A DNA stretch of 64,000 nt from Elizabethkingia bruuniana (GCF_002024805.1 NZ_CP014337.1:2666001-2730000); one strand, 5' to 3'. Counted from the first letter of the stretch, positions 1 through 14,921 are shown. Translations and numbers: made by a program. The notes: generated by a model from the sequence alone, not told the origin.

Positions 1-273
1 ATAATATATTATATAGGTTAATTATTTAGCATTTATATTACAATGCAAACACAAAGTTTTATAGAAATTAAAATAAAAGAAGCCACTTCATCTTTTCCCA
101 TAAATTCTATTTTTCATAAAGCTTCATTTTTTTAATAAAGAATGCGATTTTACAATTGTACATTTCGAAAGGCTACTAGATGATAGCGTCTTCAGACAAA
201 CCAATTACATATTAAACAAAAATCATTTTGTTCAAACACCATCATAGAGCAGATAGTTTACAATTATATTTCT

Positions 274-659
274 TTGATGGTGAAAAAAGACATTTCATAT
301 AAAAATGGGATATCCATGCAAATCAAAATTTATGCAGATTGGAAATCATTAAAAATTATTCTAAAAAATATTTTGGATAATACAATTAAGTATAATTTAC
401 CTAAAGGAAACACAAGCACCAATGAAAACATACTTACTGATAATTATTTTTCTATTACCATTGAAGACATTGGAATAAGTAGAAGTAAAGAACCACAAAA
501 AGAAATTTCATGCAAATCATAGAAATCATCATCATCAATATAAGAGTTTAGGATTCCAATTCTGCGAATTAATATCAGAAAAAAAACAATAATTTTCTAG
601 AATTGAAATCAGTAGAGAATAAAGGAACTAAAGTGACTATCTTTTTATTAAAGACATAA
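274..659 (+). pseudogene. Decayed sensor histidine kinase C-terminus (HATPase remnant)
   Basis: Pieces of a histidine kinase ATP-binding domain lie in three different reading frames. Positions 274-522 encode an N-box-like stretch (DWKSLKIILKNILDNTIKYN) followed by a degenerate G1 box (EDIGIS). Around 542-590, in a second frame, come residues resembling the G2 box (LGFQFCELISE). In a third frame, up to the stop at 657-659, the usual terminal motif (ENKGTKVTIFLL) is readable. At least two frameshifts are therefore needed to restore one protein. Bases 1-273 hold no continuous frame and probably represent more of the same decayed gene. The remnant ends 2 bases before the intact LytTR regulator, as expected for a former kinase-regulator pair. 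Confidence 0.65.
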
Positions 660-661
660 AA

Positions 662-1402
662 ATGGATAAAATAAATATTCTAATTGTAGAAAACTCTGCA
701 GAAGAAGGTCTGTTACTAGCAAATGTATTGGTGGCAAACAATTATAATATTACTGGAATAGCATCCACTTACGAAGACGCTCTAAATTTTTTTTACAACC
801 ATCCAACAGATCTTGTCATTATTGATATATTCTTAAACAATAGCACACAAGGAATAAATCTAGCACAAACCATCAATAACAATCCTAAAACTGCTAAGCC
901 TTTTGTTTTCCTTACGAGTTCATCAGATCGTCAGATATTTGAAAGAGCAAAACTAACCAAACCATTTAGCTATTTACTAAAGCCATTTAATGAGTTAGAG
1001 ATACTGTATGCTATAGAAATGGGTATAGAAAAATTTTATCAAAAAGAAGATACTTTTAGTATAATGCATAATTCTATAATGGGTACTGATTCTATCTTTG
1101 TAAAAAAAGGGAAAAGTCTTAAAAAAGTTTTGATAAAAGATATTATATATATAGAAGTAGAAGAACGCTACTGCCATGTAGTTACTATAACCGAAAGATT
1201 TTTAATACAAATATCCCTTACTAAAATTTTACCTATTCTAGATTCTGATAAATTTATTAGAACTCATCGAAATTTCATTGCCAATATCGACAAAATCATA
1301 GAAGTTACTCTCTCTGAAAACATCATTTTATTACATGGAAATCACACTATTGTACTGAGTAATAAGTATAAAGATTTTTTATCCTGTTACAAAATTTTCT
1401 AA
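662..1402 (+). CDS. LytTR-family two-component response regulator
   Basis: This is a 246-residue DNA-binding response regulator. Residues 1-120 form a receiver domain with the phospho-acceptor Asp at D55 (in LVIIDIF) and the conserved Lys in the LLKPF motif near residue 110. The acidic pocket is E10-N11 rather than two acidic residues. Residues 148-246 form a LytTR domain, recognisable by IKDIIYIEVEERYCHV and FIRTHRNFIANIDKI. Such proteins in Bacteroidota are usually paired with a 7TM- or TPR-type histidine kinase. Here the kinase immediately upstream is broken, so the regulator is an orphan unless another kinase serves it. It is the nearest regulator to the DUF2589-like gene set downstream, which it may control; that link is inferred from position only. 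Confidence 0.9.
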   Translation: MDKINILIVENSAEEGLLLANVLVANNYNITGIASTYEDALNFFYNHPTDLVIIDIFLNNSTQGINLAQTINNNPKTAKPFVFLTSSSDRQIFERAKLTKPFSYLLKPFNELEILYAIEMGIEKFYQKEDTFSIMHNSIMGTDSIFVKKGKSLKKVLIKDIIYIEVEERYCHVVTITERFLIQISLTKILPILDSDKFIRTHRNFIANIDKIIEVTLSENIILLHGNHTIVLSNKYKDFLSCYKIF

Positions 1403-1716
1403 GCGGTTTGAAAATTATTTATATCATGTAAAAAAAATTTCATCTTAAATCTCATACCAAATTTTTTAAACTTTATGTCATAGAATATTTACCTCATGAC
1501 ATTATATCTTATTTTCCTTATTCATATTTCTAATTTCACTTCAGATTAACAAAAGAAGCTAGCACTTTTAGTTACAATTTACAACAAGTTTATTAAATGG
1601 AATAGACCCACATGTGCTCACATGAAACAATTACCATCTGATCCTAAAATAAATGCAATGTAAAAATAGGGAAGCCGAAAACTATATAGAGTAGGTGAAA
1701 TTAAAAAAAATAAATT
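1403..1716. other. Intergenic AT-rich stretch before the DUF2589-like gene set
   Basis: No ORF with coding character is visible on either strand over these 314 bases. The only recognisable item is the first copy of the GGGAAGCCG leader repeat at its 3' end. A promoter for the downstream genes must lie here, but I could not pick out a convincing TAnnTTTG box. Confidence 0.5.
1669..1700 (+). repeat. Leader repeat copy 1, 48 nt before the caspase-like gene
   Basis: A 32-nt segment starting GGGAAGCCGAAAACT and continuing ATAGA-TAGGT is repeated at 2133-2164 with four differences. Both copies begin about 50 nt before a start codon (48 and 52 nt), which argues for a shared 5'UTR or regulatory function rather than chance. 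Confidence 0.75.
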
Positions 1717-2088
1717 ATGGCATCAGTAATTATTTCCAAGCCATCCAGACCTCAGCCAATCTATGGCTTTGATAACATCACAAATGGCGATGAGGTTACA
1801 GAACTTGTAAAATACATTCGCAAGAACCTTGGTCCACAATCTATGAATAAGGTAATGATTTATATTCTTTCCGGAACTCATGGTGACACTCAAGGTAATT
1901 TAGTCGGAGAAGATGATTTCTACCAGGAGGACAAATTAGTAGAATTACAAACTGTTAAAGCTGTAAGAGCAAATGAAAAAACACCGACCAACACATGGGC
2001 CAATTATTTCGGGAAAACTAATAGTATTCTGATTTTGGCATGGTGCTACAGCAACAGATGGTCTGGCTTAACCACTTACAACAAATAA
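1717..2088 (+). CDS. Small caspase-like (clan CD) putative protease
   Basis: I do not recognise a named family for this 123-residue protein. It has the layout of a minimal caspase-fold protease: a hydrophobic strand ending in a His-Gly pair (MIYILSGTHGD, H55) and a second hydrophobic strand ending in Cys (SILILAWCYS, C110). A 55-residue spacing between His and Cys is in the normal range for caspase-like enzymes. There is no signal peptide, so it should be cytoplasmic. It is preceded by the leader repeat and followed 96 bases later by the first DUF2589-like gene, which carries the same leader. The protease assignment is inference from motif spacing. It lacks obvious extra domains and could also be an inactive or non-enzymatic relative. 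Confidence 0.5.
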   Translation: MASVIISKPSRPQPIYGFDNITNGDEVTELVKYIRKNLGPQSMNKVMIYILSGTHGDTQGNLVGEDDFYQEDKLVELQTVKAVRANEKTPTNTWANYFGKTNSILILAWCYSNRWSGLTTYNK

Positions 2089-2132
2089 GCATGTCCTCCA
2101 CAAATGTTTTATCAAAAAAATAATAATTAACA

Positions 2133-2164
2133 GGGAAGCCGAAAACTGTATAGAATAGGTAAAA
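2133..2164 (+). repeat. Leader repeat copy 2, 52 nt before the first DUF2589-like gene
   Basis: This is the second copy of the element at 1669-1700. The first 15 bases (GGGAAGCCGAAAACT) are identical, and the remainder differs by a few substitutions. It lies between the caspase-like gene and the next gene, 52 nt upstream of its ATG. Confidence 0.75.
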
Positions 2165-2184
2165 AATCACAAAATTTTAATAAA

Positions 2185-2829
2185 ATGGACGATCAATTAT
2201 TATCCATAGCCCAGCAATTCTCCGGGCTACCTATAGACTCTCTTATAGGGGGACCATTATTGGCTGCTGCTAAAGCAAATGCCAATATGGCATACACACA
2301 GACACAATTCTTATTAGACACATGCTTTAACAAGGATGACAAAACCAATAACTATACTCCTATCATTATCAATATGGAGTTACAAAACAATGCAATTACT
2401 CCTGCAACAGATGGGAAAGATGCTGTAGTTACTCCATTCACTACAATTTTCAATCTACCTATTTTAACGATTATTCCCTTAAACTCATTGGCTGTAGATA
2501 ACGTAGATGTAGACTTTGAAATGGAAGTAAAATCCAGTTTTTCACAAGATACAAATCTAAGTAAACAAACAGATTTAAGCGGACAAGGAGGGTTTGAAGC
2601 AAAAGTCGGTTGGGGTCCCCTTTCAGTAACAGTACATGGAAGTGTTAGTTATGATTCTAAAGAATCATCTTCTAATGAAACACACTATCAAAAAAGCAAC
2701 AGTGCTAAGTATAGTGTAAAAGTACATGCTGGTCAACTACCTCTTCCACAAGGTGTACTTACAATTATTGAAGCATATAGTAAAAATATTACACCTATTC
2801 AGATGCCTGTACCAACAACAAAGGCATAA
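2185..2829 (+). CDS. DUF2589-like protein, paralog 1
   Basis: This 214-residue protein looks like the DUF2589 family, whose function is unknown. Residues 17-48 (IDSLIGGPLLAAAKANANMA, then TQTQFLLDTCF) resemble the family's N-terminal helix. The centre is beta-rich with alternating hydrophobics (VDVDFEMEV, FEAKVGWGPLSVTVHGSVSY). The C-terminus carries the LPLPQGVLTIIEAYSKNI pattern, which recurs in the next paralog. No signal peptide or membrane segment is present. Two paralogs follow, at 2900 and 3641. The glycine-rich beta segment around residues 130-160 is absent from the two shorter paralogs. Family membership is from memory of the motif pattern and would need a profile search. Confidence 0.65.
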   Translation: MDDQLLSIAQQFSGLPIDSLIGGPLLAAAKANANMAYTQTQFLLDTCFNKDDKTNNYTPIIINMELQNNAITPATDGKDAVVTPFTTIFNLPILTIIPLNSLAVDNVDVDFEMEVKSSFSQDTNLSKQTDLSGQGGFEAKVGWGPLSVTVHGSVSYDSKESSSNETHYQKSNSAKYSVKVHAGQLPLPQGVLTIIEAYSKNITPIQMPVPTTKA

Positions 2830-2846
2830 TATACAGTAATTTATAA

Positions 2847-2873
2847 ATGTTTGGAGGTAATCCCTCCAAACAT
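2847..2873 (+). terminator. Perfect hairpin between DUF2589-like paralogs 1 and 2
   Basis: An 11-bp perfect stem (ATGTTTGGAGG paired with CCTCCAAACAT) encloses a 5-nt loop. No U-tract follows, so it may act as a partial terminator, an mRNA-processing site or a 3'-end stabiliser within the operon rather than as a full terminator. Confidence 0.5.
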
Positions 2874-2899
2874 ATTATCAACCAATAAATAGTATTACA

Positions 2900-3433
2900 A
2901 TGAGCGATCCAGAAGAATACAAACACAACGCAGCACTTATAGAGGATCTTTTAGCTGCTCCATTTATAGCTGCAGCAAATGCAAACTCTAAAATGGCTCA
3001 AGAACAGGTGAAATTCTTAATAGAAACCTGTTTTGAAACTCATGAAGATTCCTTTATACCTAAAATGGTAAACTTAATAATAAAAAAAAACAACCCATCC
3101 GAAGATGATTATTTACCTGTAGAAACGATCAACGTTGGTTTACCTCTAATAACCATTTTACCTTTTAACTCTCTATGTGTAAAAGACATTAATGTAAAAT
3201 TTGAAATGGAGGTTACATCTTTAACTCCCAGCAATAATACCAACGAAACCGGAAATGAAAAAAAAATGCAAATGAGAGGAAGTATATCTTCTTCCAAAGA
3301 AGAAAGTAATTCTATTCAAAGGAGAAACCAATCCAAAATAGCTGTAGAAATTACAGGAGGTTCTATACCATTACCAATAGGGTTAACCACACTACTAAAT
3401 TTTTACTCTCATAATATTCATCTAAAATCTTAA
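2900..3433 (+). CDS. DUF2589-like protein, paralog 2
   Basis: This 177-residue protein is a clear paralog of the one at 2185. It shares the N-terminal helix (IEDLLAAPFIAAANANSKMA, then EQVKFLIETCF), the middle strand pattern (INVGLPLITILPFNSLCVKDINVKFEMEV) and the C-terminal SIPLPIGLTTLLNFYSHNI. The central insert of paralog 1 is reduced to a hydrophilic Ser/Asn/Lys linker. The next gene starts 4 bases after its stop, so the two are cotranscribed. Its function is unknown. Repetition of the family in one operon suggests a hetero-oligomeric assembly, which is inference. Confidence 0.65.
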   Translation: MSDPEEYKHNAALIEDLLAAPFIAAANANSKMAQEQVKFLIETCFETHEDSFIPKMVNLIIKKNNPSEDDYLPVETINVGLPLITILPFNSLCVKDINVKFEMEVTSLTPSNNTNETGNEKKMQMRGSISSSKEESNSIQRRNQSKIAVEITGGSIPLPIGLTTLLNFYSHNIHLKS

Positions 3434-3437
3434 AACT

Positions 3438-3635
3438 ATGACAATCAACCAAAAACTCCCATGTCCAAATTGCAACGCTAATATTATATATAATGTACAA
3501 GCACTAATAGCAGGAGCAAGTTTCGAGTGCCAAGGCTGTAAAGCACAAATAAAAATTTCTACTTCTAGTATCGGAGAGGTAAAGAAAGCCTATGAAAATT
3601 TCACAAAATTAAAAAGCAAAATATCTCAAAAATAA
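3438..3635 (+). CDS. Mini zinc-ribbon protein
   Basis: This 65-residue protein has two CxxC knuckles, C9-C12 (CPNC) and C31-C34 (CQGC), spaced as in a zinc ribbon. A short Lys-rich helix follows. It sits between two DUF2589-like paralogs, 4 bases after one and 5 bases before the next, so it belongs to the same transcript. It resembles the zinc-ribbon modules that bind nucleic acid or serve as protein-protein adaptors. No specific function can be assigned. Confidence 0.6.
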   Translation: MTINQKLPCPNCNANIIYNVQALIAGASFECQGCKAQIKISTSSIGEVKKAYENFTKLKSKISQK

Positions 3636-3640
3636 CTAAT

Positions 3641-4105
3641 ATGGTAAATTTAAAAAACTTAATAGAAGCTCTTAATGATTCTATAAGTATTGCTAATGAT
3701 ACTTTATTGAGTTCACACAATGACTTTATTAATGCATACTTTGAACAATCTGAAAATGGAGGCTTGATTGCCAAAACTGTTTCGTTGAACTATCCAGTAA
3801 AAATGGGAGATAGCAGTATAAAAAATGTAGCTGTAAATACTCCTATAATAACACTGATTCCTGTCTACTCACCTAAAATAGATGAAGTTAAATTAACTAC
3901 AAATCTAGAAATAGCTTTAGATAATAATGAGTTATTAGTTAGTTTTTCTAATGATGAGCTAAAGGCTGGAAATTTATTTGGAAAAAAACGGAAATCTTCT
4001 ACAGCAAAACTTGAAATCATTTTAAAGCCCGGTGAAAATACAGAAGGCCTTAAAAATATTATTGAAGGATATGAAAAAATATTAAGAGCTCAAATTCCAG
4101 GATAA
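3641..4105 (+). CDS. Divergent DUF2589-like protein, paralog 3
   Basis: This 154-residue protein keeps the overall order of the two preceding DUF2589-like proteins. It has an N-terminal helix (LIEALNDSISIANDTLLSSHNDFINA), a strand segment ending VNTPIITLIPVYSPKIDEVKL, and a C-terminal helix after a KPGENTEGLKNIIEGYEKI segment. It lacks the LIGGPL motif and is the most diverged of the three. It starts 5 bases after the zinc-ribbon gene and is followed 44 bases later by the GH25 gene. Assignment rests on gene context plus the matching segment order, so it is tentative. Confidence 0.5.
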   Translation: MVNLKNLIEALNDSISIANDTLLSSHNDFINAYFEQSENGGLIAKTVSLNYPVKMGDSSIKNVAVNTPIITLIPVYSPKIDEVKLTTNLEIALDNNELLVSFSNDELKAGNLFGKKRKSSTAKLEIILKPGENTEGLKNIIEGYEKILRAQIPG

Positions 4106-4149
4106 AGATTATCAAAATAATATTATTAATTCAATTATAAATATAAATC

Positions 4150-4959
4150 ATGAACATTATATCAAGAATAGTATTAGGACTTCTAATATTCAATATTTTA
4201 GCACTAACAGTTGTAACCTATAAAGTCATAAAATCAGATAATAAAAAAGAAAATATCAATTTTATCGCTTCTGGAAAAACAAATAGTTTTACTCCAAACA
4301 ATTCAAATATTAAAGCAAAACAAGCAATAGATTATAAAGACAGTATTTATAGCAATACGATACAAAACACATCACTAGTAGGCATTGACATATCCCACTG
4401 GAACGGTAATATTATAGAAGATTTACCAAAAATAGACAAACTAAATTTTGTTATTTGCAAGTCTACTCAGGGCGAAAGAGATATTGATCCTGATTTTATA
4501 AAAAACTGGAAATTTCTCACAGTAAATAATATCACAAAAGGAGCTTATCATTTTTATATGTATACTCAGGACCCTGTTCAACAAGCCTCCCATTTTTATA
4601 ATACCGTTGGAGCAACAAAATCTCCTGATTTTCCCCTCATTATAGACATCGAGGAGCTAAGCCTCCCAAAAAAATACATAGATAATAAAAGACTTAAAAA
4701 TGATTTGTTAAAATTCTTACAATGGATTGAAAACAAAACAAATACAACTCCTATTATATATTCAGATTATTATTTTTTAAGCAAATATCTGAATGATAAA
4801 GCCTTTTCTAAATATCCACTATGGCTTGCCGAATATTCACACAATCCTAAACCACTAATTCCTGAAGCATGGAAAGAATCGGGTTGTATGATTTGGCAAA
4901 AAACAGACAATTACCATATTAATTCTTCAGAAACAGATCTTGATGTTTATTTTAAATAA
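4150..4959 (+). CDS. GH25-family muramidase, membrane-anchored
   Basis: This 269-residue protein begins with one N-terminal hydrophobic segment (residues 5-25) and a polar linker to about residue 75. The rest is a glycosyl hydrolase 25 domain: VGIDISHWNG with D80, and the catalytic IIDIEEL strand with D166 and E168. The C-terminal part contains the PIIYSDYYF and LWLAEYS strands and a final DLDVYF. GH25 enzymes cleave the MurNAc-GlcNAc bond of peptidoglycan. The N-terminal segment would place the catalytic domain in the periplasm. It ends the DUF2589-like gene set and is followed by a hairpin. A lysozyme-like enzyme here suggests that the set acts at the envelope or on another cell's wall, which is inference. 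Confidence 0.85.
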   Translation: MNIISRIVLGLLIFNILALTVVTYKVIKSDNKKENINFIASGKTNSFTPNNSNIKAKQAIDYKDSIYSNTIQNTSLVGIDISHWNGNIIEDLPKIDKLNFVICKSTQGERDIDPDFIKNWKFLTVNNITKGAYHFYMYTQDPVQQASHFYNTVGATKSPDFPLIIDIEELSLPKKYIDNKRLKNDLLKFLQWIENKTNTTPIIYSDYYFLSKYLNDKAFSKYPLWLAEYSHNPKPLIPEAWKESGCMIWQKTDNYHINSSETDLDVYFK

Positions 4960-9954: not shown

Positions 9955-11259
9955 TTAGCTCTGATAGCCTAATAGCTTTCTGAATTGATAGAAGAAACGC
10001 TCTATCAGTCGGAGATCTTGTGTTACAATCTCTGCATTGCCTTTTAATTCTTTATCAAAAGACAATTTTTTATTAAAAGAGGTTGTTAACCCCTTAGGAA
10101 GACTTACATCTACATAATAGTTTCCATCTTTGTCCGGCACTGAGGACATATTTCGCACACGACCTTCTACTATTCCGAACTCCTGGAACTGATAATTATC
10201 TAATTTTATTAAAACTTTTTGTCCCGGTTTAACTTTTCCGGAGTTGACTGAAGGTACTGTCAGCCTGCCAATCAGTGTTTCCTTTTCTTTAGGCATCACT
10301 GTAATCAATACTTCTCCTGCTTTCACAAACTGATGCTCTCCCAGATATTGCTGAAAGCTTACCGTTCCATTGGCAGATGAAGTAAATAAATAATTTTGTT
10401 CCCAGTTGTTAAGAGATTTTCTCAATTGCTCGAACAGCTGAATTGCCTGGGAAGAATAGTTAACTTTATCTTTCTGTGCATTAATAGAAACACCACTTTT
10501 GGTCTTTTGTATTCCGGAAATCCCTTCCTGTAGCTGTGAGATTGACATATTAACATTTTCCACACTCTGTCCTGCCTGCAGAAGTTTGATTCTTTCCTGA
10601 TCTAGTTCAGATGCAGAAATCACACCCTGATTATAAAGCTGTTGTGATCTTTCAAATTCTTTTTTAGACAATTCGTACTTCGCCTGTTCCAGCCTTTTTT
10701 GCTGCTGTAACGCCTGAATCCTGTTTCTGGATTCAGAAAGGCTCTGCTCTGCAGCTACATTATCCGGAGCGTACGGCTGAAGACGTGTATATAGCTGTTC
10801 ATCTGTTAAAGCTTTGGCAAAAGCATTATAATCTCCCTGAACTTCTCCTAATTTAAATCCGGAAGTTTCTACTAAAGGAAAATTCTGCAGCTGCCTGTTG
10901 TCTAAATTATTAACTATATCCCGAAGTTTTAGCACATCCTGATAGTGTGCTGTGGACTGCAAAATTAATAATTGCTCCCCTTTATTAACCACTTGGTGAT
11001 CTTTTACAAAAAGAGCTTCTATTTTACTATTAATTCTTGATTCTAATTTCTCTGGTGGATTCTGCGTAGAGATTATAACCTGAGAAGGTACAAATTCGGG
11101 GTATTTTATAATATAACTCATTAATAATATGAGTAGTAAAATAATAAAAATAATAGTATTTCCCCATCGGATCATCCAGTGTGGCGGACGGGTTAAAATG
11201 TCCTGTACACCTTCAGAACGCAATTCTATTTCGTCTAAAATATCTCTCTTTACTTCCAT
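9955..11259 (-). CDS. HlyD-family adaptor of a peptide exporter
   Basis: This 434-residue periplasmic adaptor protein has a cytoplasmic N-terminus and one membrane helix (about residues 30-48). Biotinyl-lipoyl-like half-motifs follow, on both sides of a long coiled-coil hairpin (about 150-270, rich in Gln, Glu, Leu and Lys). A beta-barrel segment ends the protein. It matches the partner of C39-peptidase ABC exporters in type 1 secretion of GG peptides. It is separated from the peptide genes by a perfect inverted repeat, which may lower its expression relative to theirs. No dedicated TolC gene is present in this locus. Confidence 0.9.
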   Translation of the reverse strand: MEVKRDILDEIELRSEGVQDILTRPPHWMIRWGNTIIFIILLLILLMSYIIKYPEFVPSQVIISTQNPPEKLESRINSKIEALFVKDHQVVNKGEQLLILQSTAHYQDVLKLRDIVNNLDNRQLQNFPLVETSGFKLGEVQGDYNAFAKALTDEQLYTRLQPYAPDNVAAEQSLSESRNRIQALQQQKRLEQAKYELSKKEFERSQQLYNQGVISASELDQERIKLLQAGQSVENVNMSISQLQEGISGIQKTKSGVSINAQKDKVNYSSQAIQLFEQLRKSLNNWEQNYLFTSSANGTVSFQQYLGEHQFVKAGEVLITVMPKEKETLIGRLTVPSVNSGKVKPGQKVLIKLDNYQFQEFGIVEGRVRNMSSVPDKDGNYYVDVSLPKGLTTSFNKKLSFDKELKGNAEIVTQDLRLIERFFYQFRKLLGYQS

Positions 11260-12719: not shown

Positions 12720-14921
12720 TTAGTTTCCAAGCTCCAACTGGTTTTTCACTAATCTGTAATACTCTCCTTGTAATGCAACTAATTCTGTATGATTCCCCTC
12801 TTCTACCACTTTTCCTTTGTCCAGAACAATAATCTTATCAGCATGCTTCACAGTTGATAATCTATGAGCAATAACAATAGCTGTTTTTCCTTTAAAGAAC
12901 TGTTCCAGATTTTCCATGATAACTTTTTCATTATTAGCATCCAATGCACTGGTCGCCTCATCAAAAAAGATATATTCGGGAGATTTATAAACTGCACGAG
13001 CAATAAACAGACGTTGCTTTTGTCCGCCACTCACACCAATACCTTCATTTCCTATTTTAGTATTATAGCTTAACGGAAGCCCTTCAATAAATTCCTTAAT
13101 ATTAGCTATATCAACTGCTTTTCGAAGTTTTTGTTTATCTATATAATCTTCTCCAACTGCAATATTATTGGCAATAGTATCATTGAAGACATAGCCTTCC
13201 TGCATCACAACACCACAATGATCTCTCCAAAAGCGTGGTGAAACATTTTTTAACGGTGTATTTCCTATTTTGAGCTCACCTTCCTGTGGTTCATAAAACT
13301 TCATCAGTAATTTTAACAATGTTGTTTTCCCACTTCCGCTGGCTCCAACAATTGCCGTTGTTTTCTGATAAGGAATACTCAGATTAAGGTTTTCAAAAAC
13401 ATAAGCATCCGAGCCTACATAGCGAAAAGTAAGATTTTTAACCTCTATGTCCTGTTGAGGTATCTCTGACGCATACTGCTCTTCAGCATTTTCTTCATCT
13501 TCTTTATCATGAATTTCTCCCAAACGTTCTAATGATATTTTTGCATCCTGAGTTTGGCGAATAAAATCAATAAGCTGCATCAACGGTCCGTTTAACTGTC
13601 CGATGATATACTGCACGGAAAGCATCATCCCCAGAGTCAAATTACCATCTAATACCAGTTTTGCTGATAAAAAGCTAACCAGAATATCTTTCATCTGATT
13701 GATAAAATTACCTCCTACAGATTGCCATTGCTCCAATGAAAGTGATTTGATACGAAGCTTGAATAATTTTACTTGCAGAAACTCCCATCCCCAACGCTTT
13801 TGCTTTTCAGCATTGTGCATTTTTATTTCCTGCATTCCGTTAACAAGCTCTATCACCTTACTCTGCTCCTGCGAAATCTGTGAAAACCTTTTATAATCAA
13901 GCTCTTTTCTTTTTTTCAGGAAAAAAGTAATCCATCCAATATAAAGAACTGCTCCTAAAAGATAAATTAGGAATAAACGGTAATCATAAAATAATAGTAC
14001 AATACTAAATATAATAAGATTGACCAATGAAAATAAAGTATTGAGAGAAGAGTTCGTTAGTAACTGTTCAATACGATGGTGGTCATTTATCCGCTGCATG
14101 ATATCACCGGTCATCCTTGTATCAAAGAAACTAATCGGCAACTTCATCAATTTGATAAAGAAATCAGAAATAATAGAAATATTAATCCGGGTAGAAAGAT
14201 GAAGTAAGATCCAGCTGCGAATAACTTCTATTCCCATCCTGCCTGCAAAAAGCATCACCTGTGCTAATAACACTAGATAAATAAAGTTAATATCATGATT
14301 CTGAATACCGACATCGACAATACTTTGAGTAAGAAATGGAAAAATCAAAGAAAGTAAACTTCCCGCCAGAAGCCCAACTGCCAGCTGCAAAATCAGATTT
14401 TTATACTTTAGTAAGTACTTTGAAAGAAATTTAAAACTGGCTTTACTTTCTTTATCATCCCATTCAGTCTGATAAAAAGCAGGTGTAGTTTCCAAAATAA
14501 GAGCAATACCCTCTTCTGTTTTTTCATCTGCATTTTCCCCAATCCAGAATTTAATAAACTCTTCCCTTGTATAAGTAATTAACCCATAACTTGGATCAGA
14601 AACATATACTGTATAATCGTTTTTCTTTTTTTCAATTTTATAAACCACAACAAAGTGGTTTTTGTTCCAGTGAACAACACAAGGTAGCGGAACTTCGGAC
14701 ACTAAATCATCAAAATTAATCTGTACACCTAGTGTGCGGTATCCGAGATTTTCTGCAGCATCACTTAGCCCTAACAGACTACTTCCTTCACGTGTGGTTT
14801 CAGAAAGACCACGTATTTGTTGTAATGGTATGCTTTTTCCGTAATATTTACTTACAATCCGCAAACATGTAGGACCACAGTCCTTGGCATCAGGCTGCTT
14901 ATAGAATGGAAATTTTTTCAA
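12720..14921 (-). CDS. C39-peptidase-containing ABC exporter for GG-leader peptides
   Basis: This 733-residue bacteriocin-type exporter starts at a TTG codon, fixed by the conserved MKKFPFYKQPDAKDCGPTCL start. The N-terminal C39 protease carries C15, H89 and D109 as the catalytic triad. Six transmembrane helices follow (about 165-440). The ATP-binding domain has Walker A GASGSGKTT, signature VSGGQKQR, Walker B YIFFDEATSALD and a switch His in VIAHRLSTV. It should remove the GG leader and export the peptide core. Peptide genes flank it on both sides on the same strand (15090 upstream, five downstream), with HlyD and VKOR-Trx after them. Confidence 0.95.
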   Translation of the reverse strand: MKKFPFYKQPDAKDCGPTCLRIVSKYYGKSIPLQQIRGLSETTREGSSLLGLSDAAENLGYRTLGVQINFDDLVSEVPLPCVVHWNKNHFVVVYKIEKKKNDYTVYVSDPSYGLITYTREEFIKFWIGENADEKTEEGIALILETTPAFYQTEWDDKESKASFKFLSKYLLKYKNLILQLAVGLLAGSLLSLIFPFLTQSIVDVGIQNHDINFIYLVLLAQVMLFAGRMGIEVIRSWILLHLSTRINISIISDFFIKLMKLPISFFDTRMTGDIMQRINDHHRIEQLLTNSSLNTLFSLVNLIIFSIVLLFYDYRLFLIYLLGAVLYIGWITFFLKKRKELDYKRFSQISQEQSKVIELVNGMQEIKMHNAEKQKRWGWEFLQVKLFKLRIKSLSLEQWQSVGGNFINQMKDILVSFLSAKLVLDGNLTLGMMLSVQYIIGQLNGPLMQLIDFIRQTQDAKISLERLGEIHDKEDEENAEEQYASEIPQQDIEVKNLTFRYVGSDAYVFENLNLSIPYQKTTAIVGASGSGKTTLLKLLMKFYEPQEGELKIGNTPLKNVSPRFWRDHCGVVMQEGYVFNDTIANNIAVGEDYIDKQKLRKAVDIANIKEFIEGLPLSYNTKIGNEGIGVSGGQKQRLFIARAVYKSPEYIFFDEATSALDANNEKVIMENLEQFFKGKTAIVIAHRLSTVKHADKIIVLDKGKVVEEGNHTELVALQGEYYRLVKNQLELGN

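Follow-up and report, generated by a model that had tools for sequence, protein, structure and literature searches.

Near the beginning of a 64,000-nucleotide stretch of Elizabethkingia bruuniana DNA (positions 2,666,001-2,730,000 of a 4.43-Mb single-contig genome, referred to here as the window) lies a compact operon in which three paralogs of the protein family DUF2589 are combined with a small caspase-like protein, a zinc ribbon and a membrane-anchored muramidase (Table 1). The six genes are all located on the plus strand and are separated by 96, 70, 4, 5 and 44 bases, which agrees with the genes, the coordinates and the gaps of only 4-5 bases between the middle genes reported in an earlier note made from the sequence alone. 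The operon start given there, 1669, falls inside the first of two copies of a cis-regulatory RNA, DUF805b. All six genes are syntenic in two further genomes with protein identities of 51-82%, and for the regulator upstream and the six genes the rate of nonsynonymous substitution (dN) is far below the synonymous rate (dS) wherever dS was computable, many dS values being saturated. Owing to this synteny and the low dN relative to dS, the operon represents more than a chance arrangement. The AT-richness remarked on earlier is real, with a guanine-plus-cytosine content of 0.315 compared to 0.362 for the window, but it ranks only 10th of 122 windows and is common to the first ~10 kb, and therefore does not distinguish the operon.

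The upstream regulator, likewise pointed out in the earlier note, turned out to be a member of the ancestral operon rather than a mere neighbour, as indicated by the gene order in Chryseobacterium sp. FH1 and another genome from the window's family. There, the complete operon comprises a 133-residue protein, a TPR histidine kinase and a LytTR-type response regulator followed by the six genes; in the comparison loci L036 and L037 (comparison loci and genomes are given as L and G numbers), the first two genes are intact. The regulator has syntenic orthologs in L036, L037 and L076. In the window genome, the first two genes persist as remnants, whereas all seven genes from the regulator onwards are intact. 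The first gene breaks off after about 51 residues, and the kinase remnant was located by tblastn with the kinases of Chryseobacterium sp. FH1 and G161. As this remnant lies beside an intact regulator and six intact genes, the copy has lost its own sensor and is either driven by another kinase or heading for decay.

Table 1. Operon genes, upstream remnants and RNA elements, in window coordinates
Feature	Position	Strand	Evidence and remarks
Remnant of the 133-residue first gene	about -281 to -129		just outside the window; E 3e-15
TPR histidine kinase remnant	190..656	+	C-terminal part only (residues 417-521 and 551-577 of the ~580 in the kinase), split over two frames; tblastn E 1e-22
LytTR-type response regulator (receiver + LytTR), intact	662..1402	+	Pfam LytTR 3.7e-17, Response_reg 4.5e-12
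DUF805b cis-regulatory RNA, copy 1	1665..1697	+	Rfam RF02914 37.4 bits, gathering 35.6; 19 nt before the protease gene
Caspase/Tox-HDC-like protein, 123 aa	1717..2088	+	Tox-HDC below cut-off; H55 and C110 invariant; swap slot
DUF805b cis-regulatory RNA, copy 2, before DUFa	2129..2161	+	RF02914 34.5 bits, E 5.6e-7, just below gathering 35.6
DUF2589 paralog a (DUFa), 214 aa	2185..2829	+	Pfam PF11655 2.6e-29
DUF2589 paralog b (DUFb), 177 aa	2900..3433	+	Pfam PF11655 8e-21
Zinc ribbon (CPxC...CxxC), 65 aa	3438..3635	+	four invariant Cys; MJ0042_CXXC match
DUF2589 paralog c (DUFc), 154 aa	3641..4105	+	Pfam PF11655 1.3e-14
GH25 muramidase, N-terminal membrane anchor, 269 aa	4150..4959	+	Pfam GH25 1.9e-32

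The DUF2589 core and its wall enzymes

The earlier note had proposed a PF11655 profile search of the three DUF2589-like proteins, two of which it called clear and one divergent, and had named the lack of a shared fold as the outcome speaking against its proposal. All three proved to be members of one Pfam family, scoring 103 (DUFa), 75.4 (DUFb) and 55.3 bits (DUFc) against a gathering cut-off of 23 bits, and the third is no doubtful case. The 65-residue zinc ribbon described there is borne out by its four cysteines, all invariant in the alignment, and by an MJ0042_CXXC match of 22.1 bits (cut-off 20.9). The Pfam entry for DUF2589 gives no function, single and profile searches by sequence returned no relatives in the PDB, and a literature search, with most subscription journals outside its scope, yielded one incidental mention of DUF2589 and none of PF11655. 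An AlphaFold model of DUFa built on a 7-row alignment reached a predicted local distance difference test (pLDDT) value of 52.6, and the best Foldseek match to this low-confidence model had an E-value of 0.6. A reading of the Ser/Thr-rich hairpin of DUFa as that of a pore-forming toxin was dropped, as not even weak Pfam support was found over 27 members.

Profile searches of 1,924 genomes and subsequent reading of the neighbourhoods, with mechanical gene calls in the retrieved loci, revealed 15 triplet loci: the window, L036, L037, L076, L075, L038 (with the ribbon but one DUF2589 gene short of three), L078, L108, L109, L110, L177, L178, L181, L182 and L183. In 13 of the 15, DUFb and DUFc flank the zinc ribbon, which gives the core order DUFa-DUFb-zinc ribbon-DUFc. 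These loci span several families and orders of Bacteroidota, including L078 in a family far from the window's class, and the full set is intact in Chryseobacterium sp. FH1 and one more genome. Such a survey had been suggested earlier, with absence of the gene set from other genomes as the result that would tell against a functional unit; instead, the set recurs in other genomes and its core across Bacteroidota.

The muramidase matches GH25 (PF01183) with 113.5 bits (cut-off 27), retains D80, D166 and E168, which are invariant in the alignment, and features an N-terminal hydrophobic stretch from residue 3 with a hydropathy of 2.35, in accordance with the membrane-anchored lysozyme-type enzyme noted before. 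In a hydropathy scan, no other protein of the six-gene operon contained a hydrophobic segment of transmembrane grade. Among PHROGs, the enzyme matches phage endolysin families (2.1e-34). Next to 11 of the 15 triplet loci, an enzyme acting on peptidoglycan is encoded. It belongs to GH25 in the window, L036, L037, L076, L108, L110, L181, L182 and L183 (for L036, L037 and L183 on the basis of a profile match with the window enzyme), to M15 with a peptidoglycan-binding domain in L177 and to GH19 in L178. Other DUF2589 loci carry GH24 (L115), a PF11860 muramidase (L111, L114, L116), an SLT transglycosylase (L112, L113), M15 together with patatin (L039 type), CHAP (L090) or a peptidoglycan-binding protein (L084, L088). 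The association of DUF2589 with wall hydrolases is accordingly far wider than the earlier note could see. In six triplet-bearing genomes, GH25 occurs in one to two copies each, one of which stands beside DUF2589 genes in all six; a rough estimate from genome size puts the chance of this in a given genome well below 1%, with three of the six genomes being syntenic and thus not independent. The GH25 and SLT enzymes possess an N-terminal hydrophobic anchor, which the M15, GH19, GH24 and PF11860 enzymes do not. Since non-homologous wall enzymes replace each other in one place, wall cutting, and not one particular enzyme, seems to be the conserved need.

DUF805b elements and the swap slot

Both DUF805b copies of the window match RF02914 and keep its stem. 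Their positions are conserved in L036, L037 and L076, two copies precede DUFa in L075, and one weaker match is found between the regulator and DUFa in L178. Across 33 elements, a mean of 3.45 of 4 stem pairs is formed, compared to 2.03 with shuffled partners (reached in 0 of 5000 shufflings). As the pairs are kept despite changes on both sides, the stem is real. Where checked, the element ends 16-22 nt upstream of a start codon. No paper on it, and no account of its function, came up in the same literature search.

Apart from the DUF2589 and protease genes, DUF805b also occurs ahead of bacteriocin-like peptides in the same bacterial family: among 25 other elements examined, at least 7 lie before genes passing the NCBIfam model leader_Chryseo (bacteriocin-like protein). 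In G549, which also holds the triplet L075, one further element lies before the gene of a stand-alone PF11860 muramidase. In this part of the tree, the shared element thus ties the operon to antagonism genes, and bacteriocin-like peptides, a muramidase and DUF2589 operons may be considered a candidate DUF805b regulon. Within the window's family, elements directly before small bacteriocin-like leader peptides (NCBIfam NF047798) were observed in L135, L142-L144, L149, L155, L156 and L163. In the window itself, genes for an HlyD-like protein (9955-11259) and a peptidase-containing ABC exporter (12720-14921), both recognized by eye, follow the operon at a distance of 5-10 kb; L144 holds a comparable exporter gene with DUF805b and leader peptides behind it.

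The slot between the regulator and DUFa is occupied by the caspase-like gene in three genomes. The caspase-like label given to its product earlier is less secure than it was presented. On the one hand, H55 (SGTHGD) and C110 (LAWCYS) are invariant in three orthologs; on the other hand, the Tox-HDC match (PF15656; 18 bits, E 0.0035) remains below the cut-off of 21, and the AlphaFold model, based on a 2-row alignment, is poor (pLDDT 51.2). In this model, strands end at 54 and 111, and its comparison by VIA-align returned a ketosynthase-like match (Z 5) that is uninterpretable. In L076, the slot is filled by an unrelated 186-residue protein that matches Peptidase_C58 weakly (16.3 bits against a cut-off of 23), its gene lying between the two DUF805b copies. 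A trypsin-like protein (Trypsin_2, 5.9e-15) is encoded downstream of the triplet in L075, and a different small protein with a histidine/cysteine dyad follows the zinc ribbon or DUFc in L078 and L079. Homology of the latter to the window protease was considered; profile comparison of very shallow alignments gave no relation, and the two are treated as different. No signal or transmembrane segment was detected in the small proteases and cargo proteins scanned, a set that did not comprise L079. Readings by eye of two L108 proteins as CheD/CNF-like and of L179 as L,D-transpeptidase-like gained no Pfam support and were rejected.

Interpretation and rival explanations

We tentatively read the operon as a regulated module for opening the envelope and setting leaderless effectors free, a serious possibility held with confidence short of even. 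It would work in the manner of a lysis cassette, with which it has no part but a wall enzyme in common. The two-component system, devoid of its kinase in the window genome, would turn the operon on together with the DUF805b leader elements; the DUF2589 paralogs and the zinc ribbon would make up the conserved core; the peptidoglycan hydrolase would cut the wall locally or lyse the cell; and the leaderless swap-slot protease would exit the producer or act during its death. This reading draws on the observed composition and recurrence of the operon, the exchange of wall enzymes, the variable slot, cargo without export signals and a cis-element common to bacteriocin-like peptides. Beyond these observations, the DUF2589 proteins may form one complex acting at the membrane or envelope, the cargo may be released, and its target may be bacterial.

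Several findings weigh against it. Neither Pfam nor PHROGs revealed a holin or spanin homolog in the operon, no immunity gene was recognized, and a membrane role of DUF2589 is unsupported, the structure model of DUFa being poor. No DUF805b match was obtained in L108, L109, L110, L181 and L182 at the E-value used. Four triplet loci are without an adjacent wall enzyme, although one of them is at a contig end and another has a muramidase elsewhere under the same RNA element. Several triplet loci, comprising most of those outside the window's group, contain no recognized protease, and the slot is therefore taken as a feature of part of the family. Moreover, an anchored GH25 also fits housekeeping wall remodelling or the assembly of a machine.

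Specialised lytic transglycosylases open the wall for the assembly of secretion systems and flagella, and the DUF2589 proteins could likewise build a trans-envelope apparatus for secretion, adhesion or motility, with the wall enzyme providing the hole. Two to three paralogs of one family plus a zinc ribbon resemble structural parts, and both the interchange of wall-enzyme families and the GH25 and SLT anchors, which place the enzymes facing the periplasm, suit such an apparatus. Nevertheless, it appears unlikely, with an operon that holds no membrane, outer-membrane or NTPase component and with M15, GH19, GH24 and PF11860 enzymes in sister loci that carry no export signal. An ordinary operon for envelope stress or cell-wall remodelling, with the caspase-like protein as a protease of local regulatory function, would match the two-component control, the membrane-anchored GH25 and the strong conservation of DUFa and the protease. 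It accounts poorly for the patchy distribution (DUF2589 is absent from all 5 further species of the genus that were searched), for a protease gene that is swapped for an unrelated one in L076 and missing or displaced elsewhere, and for the leaderless endolysin-type enzymes of sister loci, and is considered even less probable than the apparatus.

Much the same low probability as for the apparatus is assigned to a module of programmed death or abortive infection, in which protease and muramidase kill the producer and protect its kin without any release of cargo. The caspase-like, trypsin-like, patatin and SLATT proteins encoded nearby are of kinds typical of suicide effectors, and conflict systems have been described in which caspase and trypsin parts exclude one another (Kaur et al., 2020; PMC7159879). 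These systems are the nearest precedent for the cargo; in both cases, caspase-like and trypsin-like peptidases interchange and wall-active effectors occur. However, the sensor, NTPase and adaptor parts of the described systems are lacking, and no vWA, MoxR, VMAP, EAD or STAND component was recognized among the Pfam matches of the operon proteins, EAD domains not having been searched separately. Furthermore, no PADLOC family matched any of the 10 proteins, and two-component control together with a cis-element common to bacteriocin-like peptides points to planned expression. Because of the missing PADLOC matches and the shared element, the defence function that the earlier note had offered beside lysis and antagonism is not favoured, whereas lysis, release or antagonism fits better.

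An origin from domesticated prophage lysis genes is highly improbable. Although the GH25 matches phage endolysin families and the module is found on one unannotated contig from faeces that is filed as phage, no PHROG matches DUF2589 or the cargo proteins, no phage genes were seen around the operon, and five IMG/VR scans led to one contig, in which the locus is interrupted by an integrase; the viral scans for the protease, DUFc and a mixed DUF2589 alignment returned nothing. In that sole contig (L117:2956-4956), a DUF2589 gene is truncated and the integrase-like gene comes directly after it, which looks like the insertion of a mobile element.

For the proposed envelope-opening module, the nearest functional precedent is the lysis cassette (Type 10 secretion) of Yersinia entomophaga, which is reported to release a cocktail of toxins and to be controlled by a PhoB-like regulator (PMC10847048, PMC10101115). 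The likeness comprises a regulated cassette, a peptidoglycan hydrolase and response-regulator control, as well as the release of leaderless protein toxins, which is likewise proposed for the leaderless cargo here. The endolysin-type wall hydrolase expected of such a cassette is present in the operon as the GH25 with its PHROG match. Unlike the holin-endolysin-spanin cassettes, however, this module has DUF2589 and zinc ribbon proteins as its core, exchanges the family of its wall enzyme between loci and includes a small protease cargo in the same operon; as no holin or spanin was found, it is not classed as a lysis cassette.

The remark of the earlier note that no system of this composition was described stands: none was found in curated databases, PADLOC included, or in the literature searched. 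A bolder and rather doubtful proposal is that DUF2589 modules constitute a new, non-phage class of envelope-opening machines in Bacteroidota and Pseudomonadota, in which the paralogs stand in for the holin, wall enzymes and protease cargo can be exchanged, and control is shared with bacteriocin-like peptides via the DUF805b RNA in the case of Flavobacteriales. If the release model is true, it would offer a new solution to a known task, namely a new exit route for leaderless proteins. DUF2589, so far an unstudied family, becomes a testable system whose functional partner is clear, namely a wall-cutting enzyme, whose cargo slot varies and whose cis-regulatory RNA is defined.

Other DUF2589 loci

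Looser loci, in which one or two DUF2589 genes have other partners, are frequent within the window's family and are present on replicons of Vibrio, Burkholderia and deltaproteobacteria as well. A second set with conserved order in the window's family (L039:3800-7821 and similarly L040-L044 and L093) encodes DUF2589, proteins of ~227 and ~185 residues, a patatin-like phospholipase and an M15 peptidase. In L092:186-6818, a DUF2589 set adjoins a large protein with SpvB/TcdB (Tc-toxin B-like) domains, and on a Vibrio plasmid (L113:1-938), the surroundings of the DUF2589 locus include a peptidase-ABC exporter and a protein whose annotation gives a TcdA/TcdB-type glycosyltransferase domain. Finally, L079:9159-10730 encodes a 523-residue fusion of DUF2589 with bacterial Ig-like domains, the only such fusion seen.

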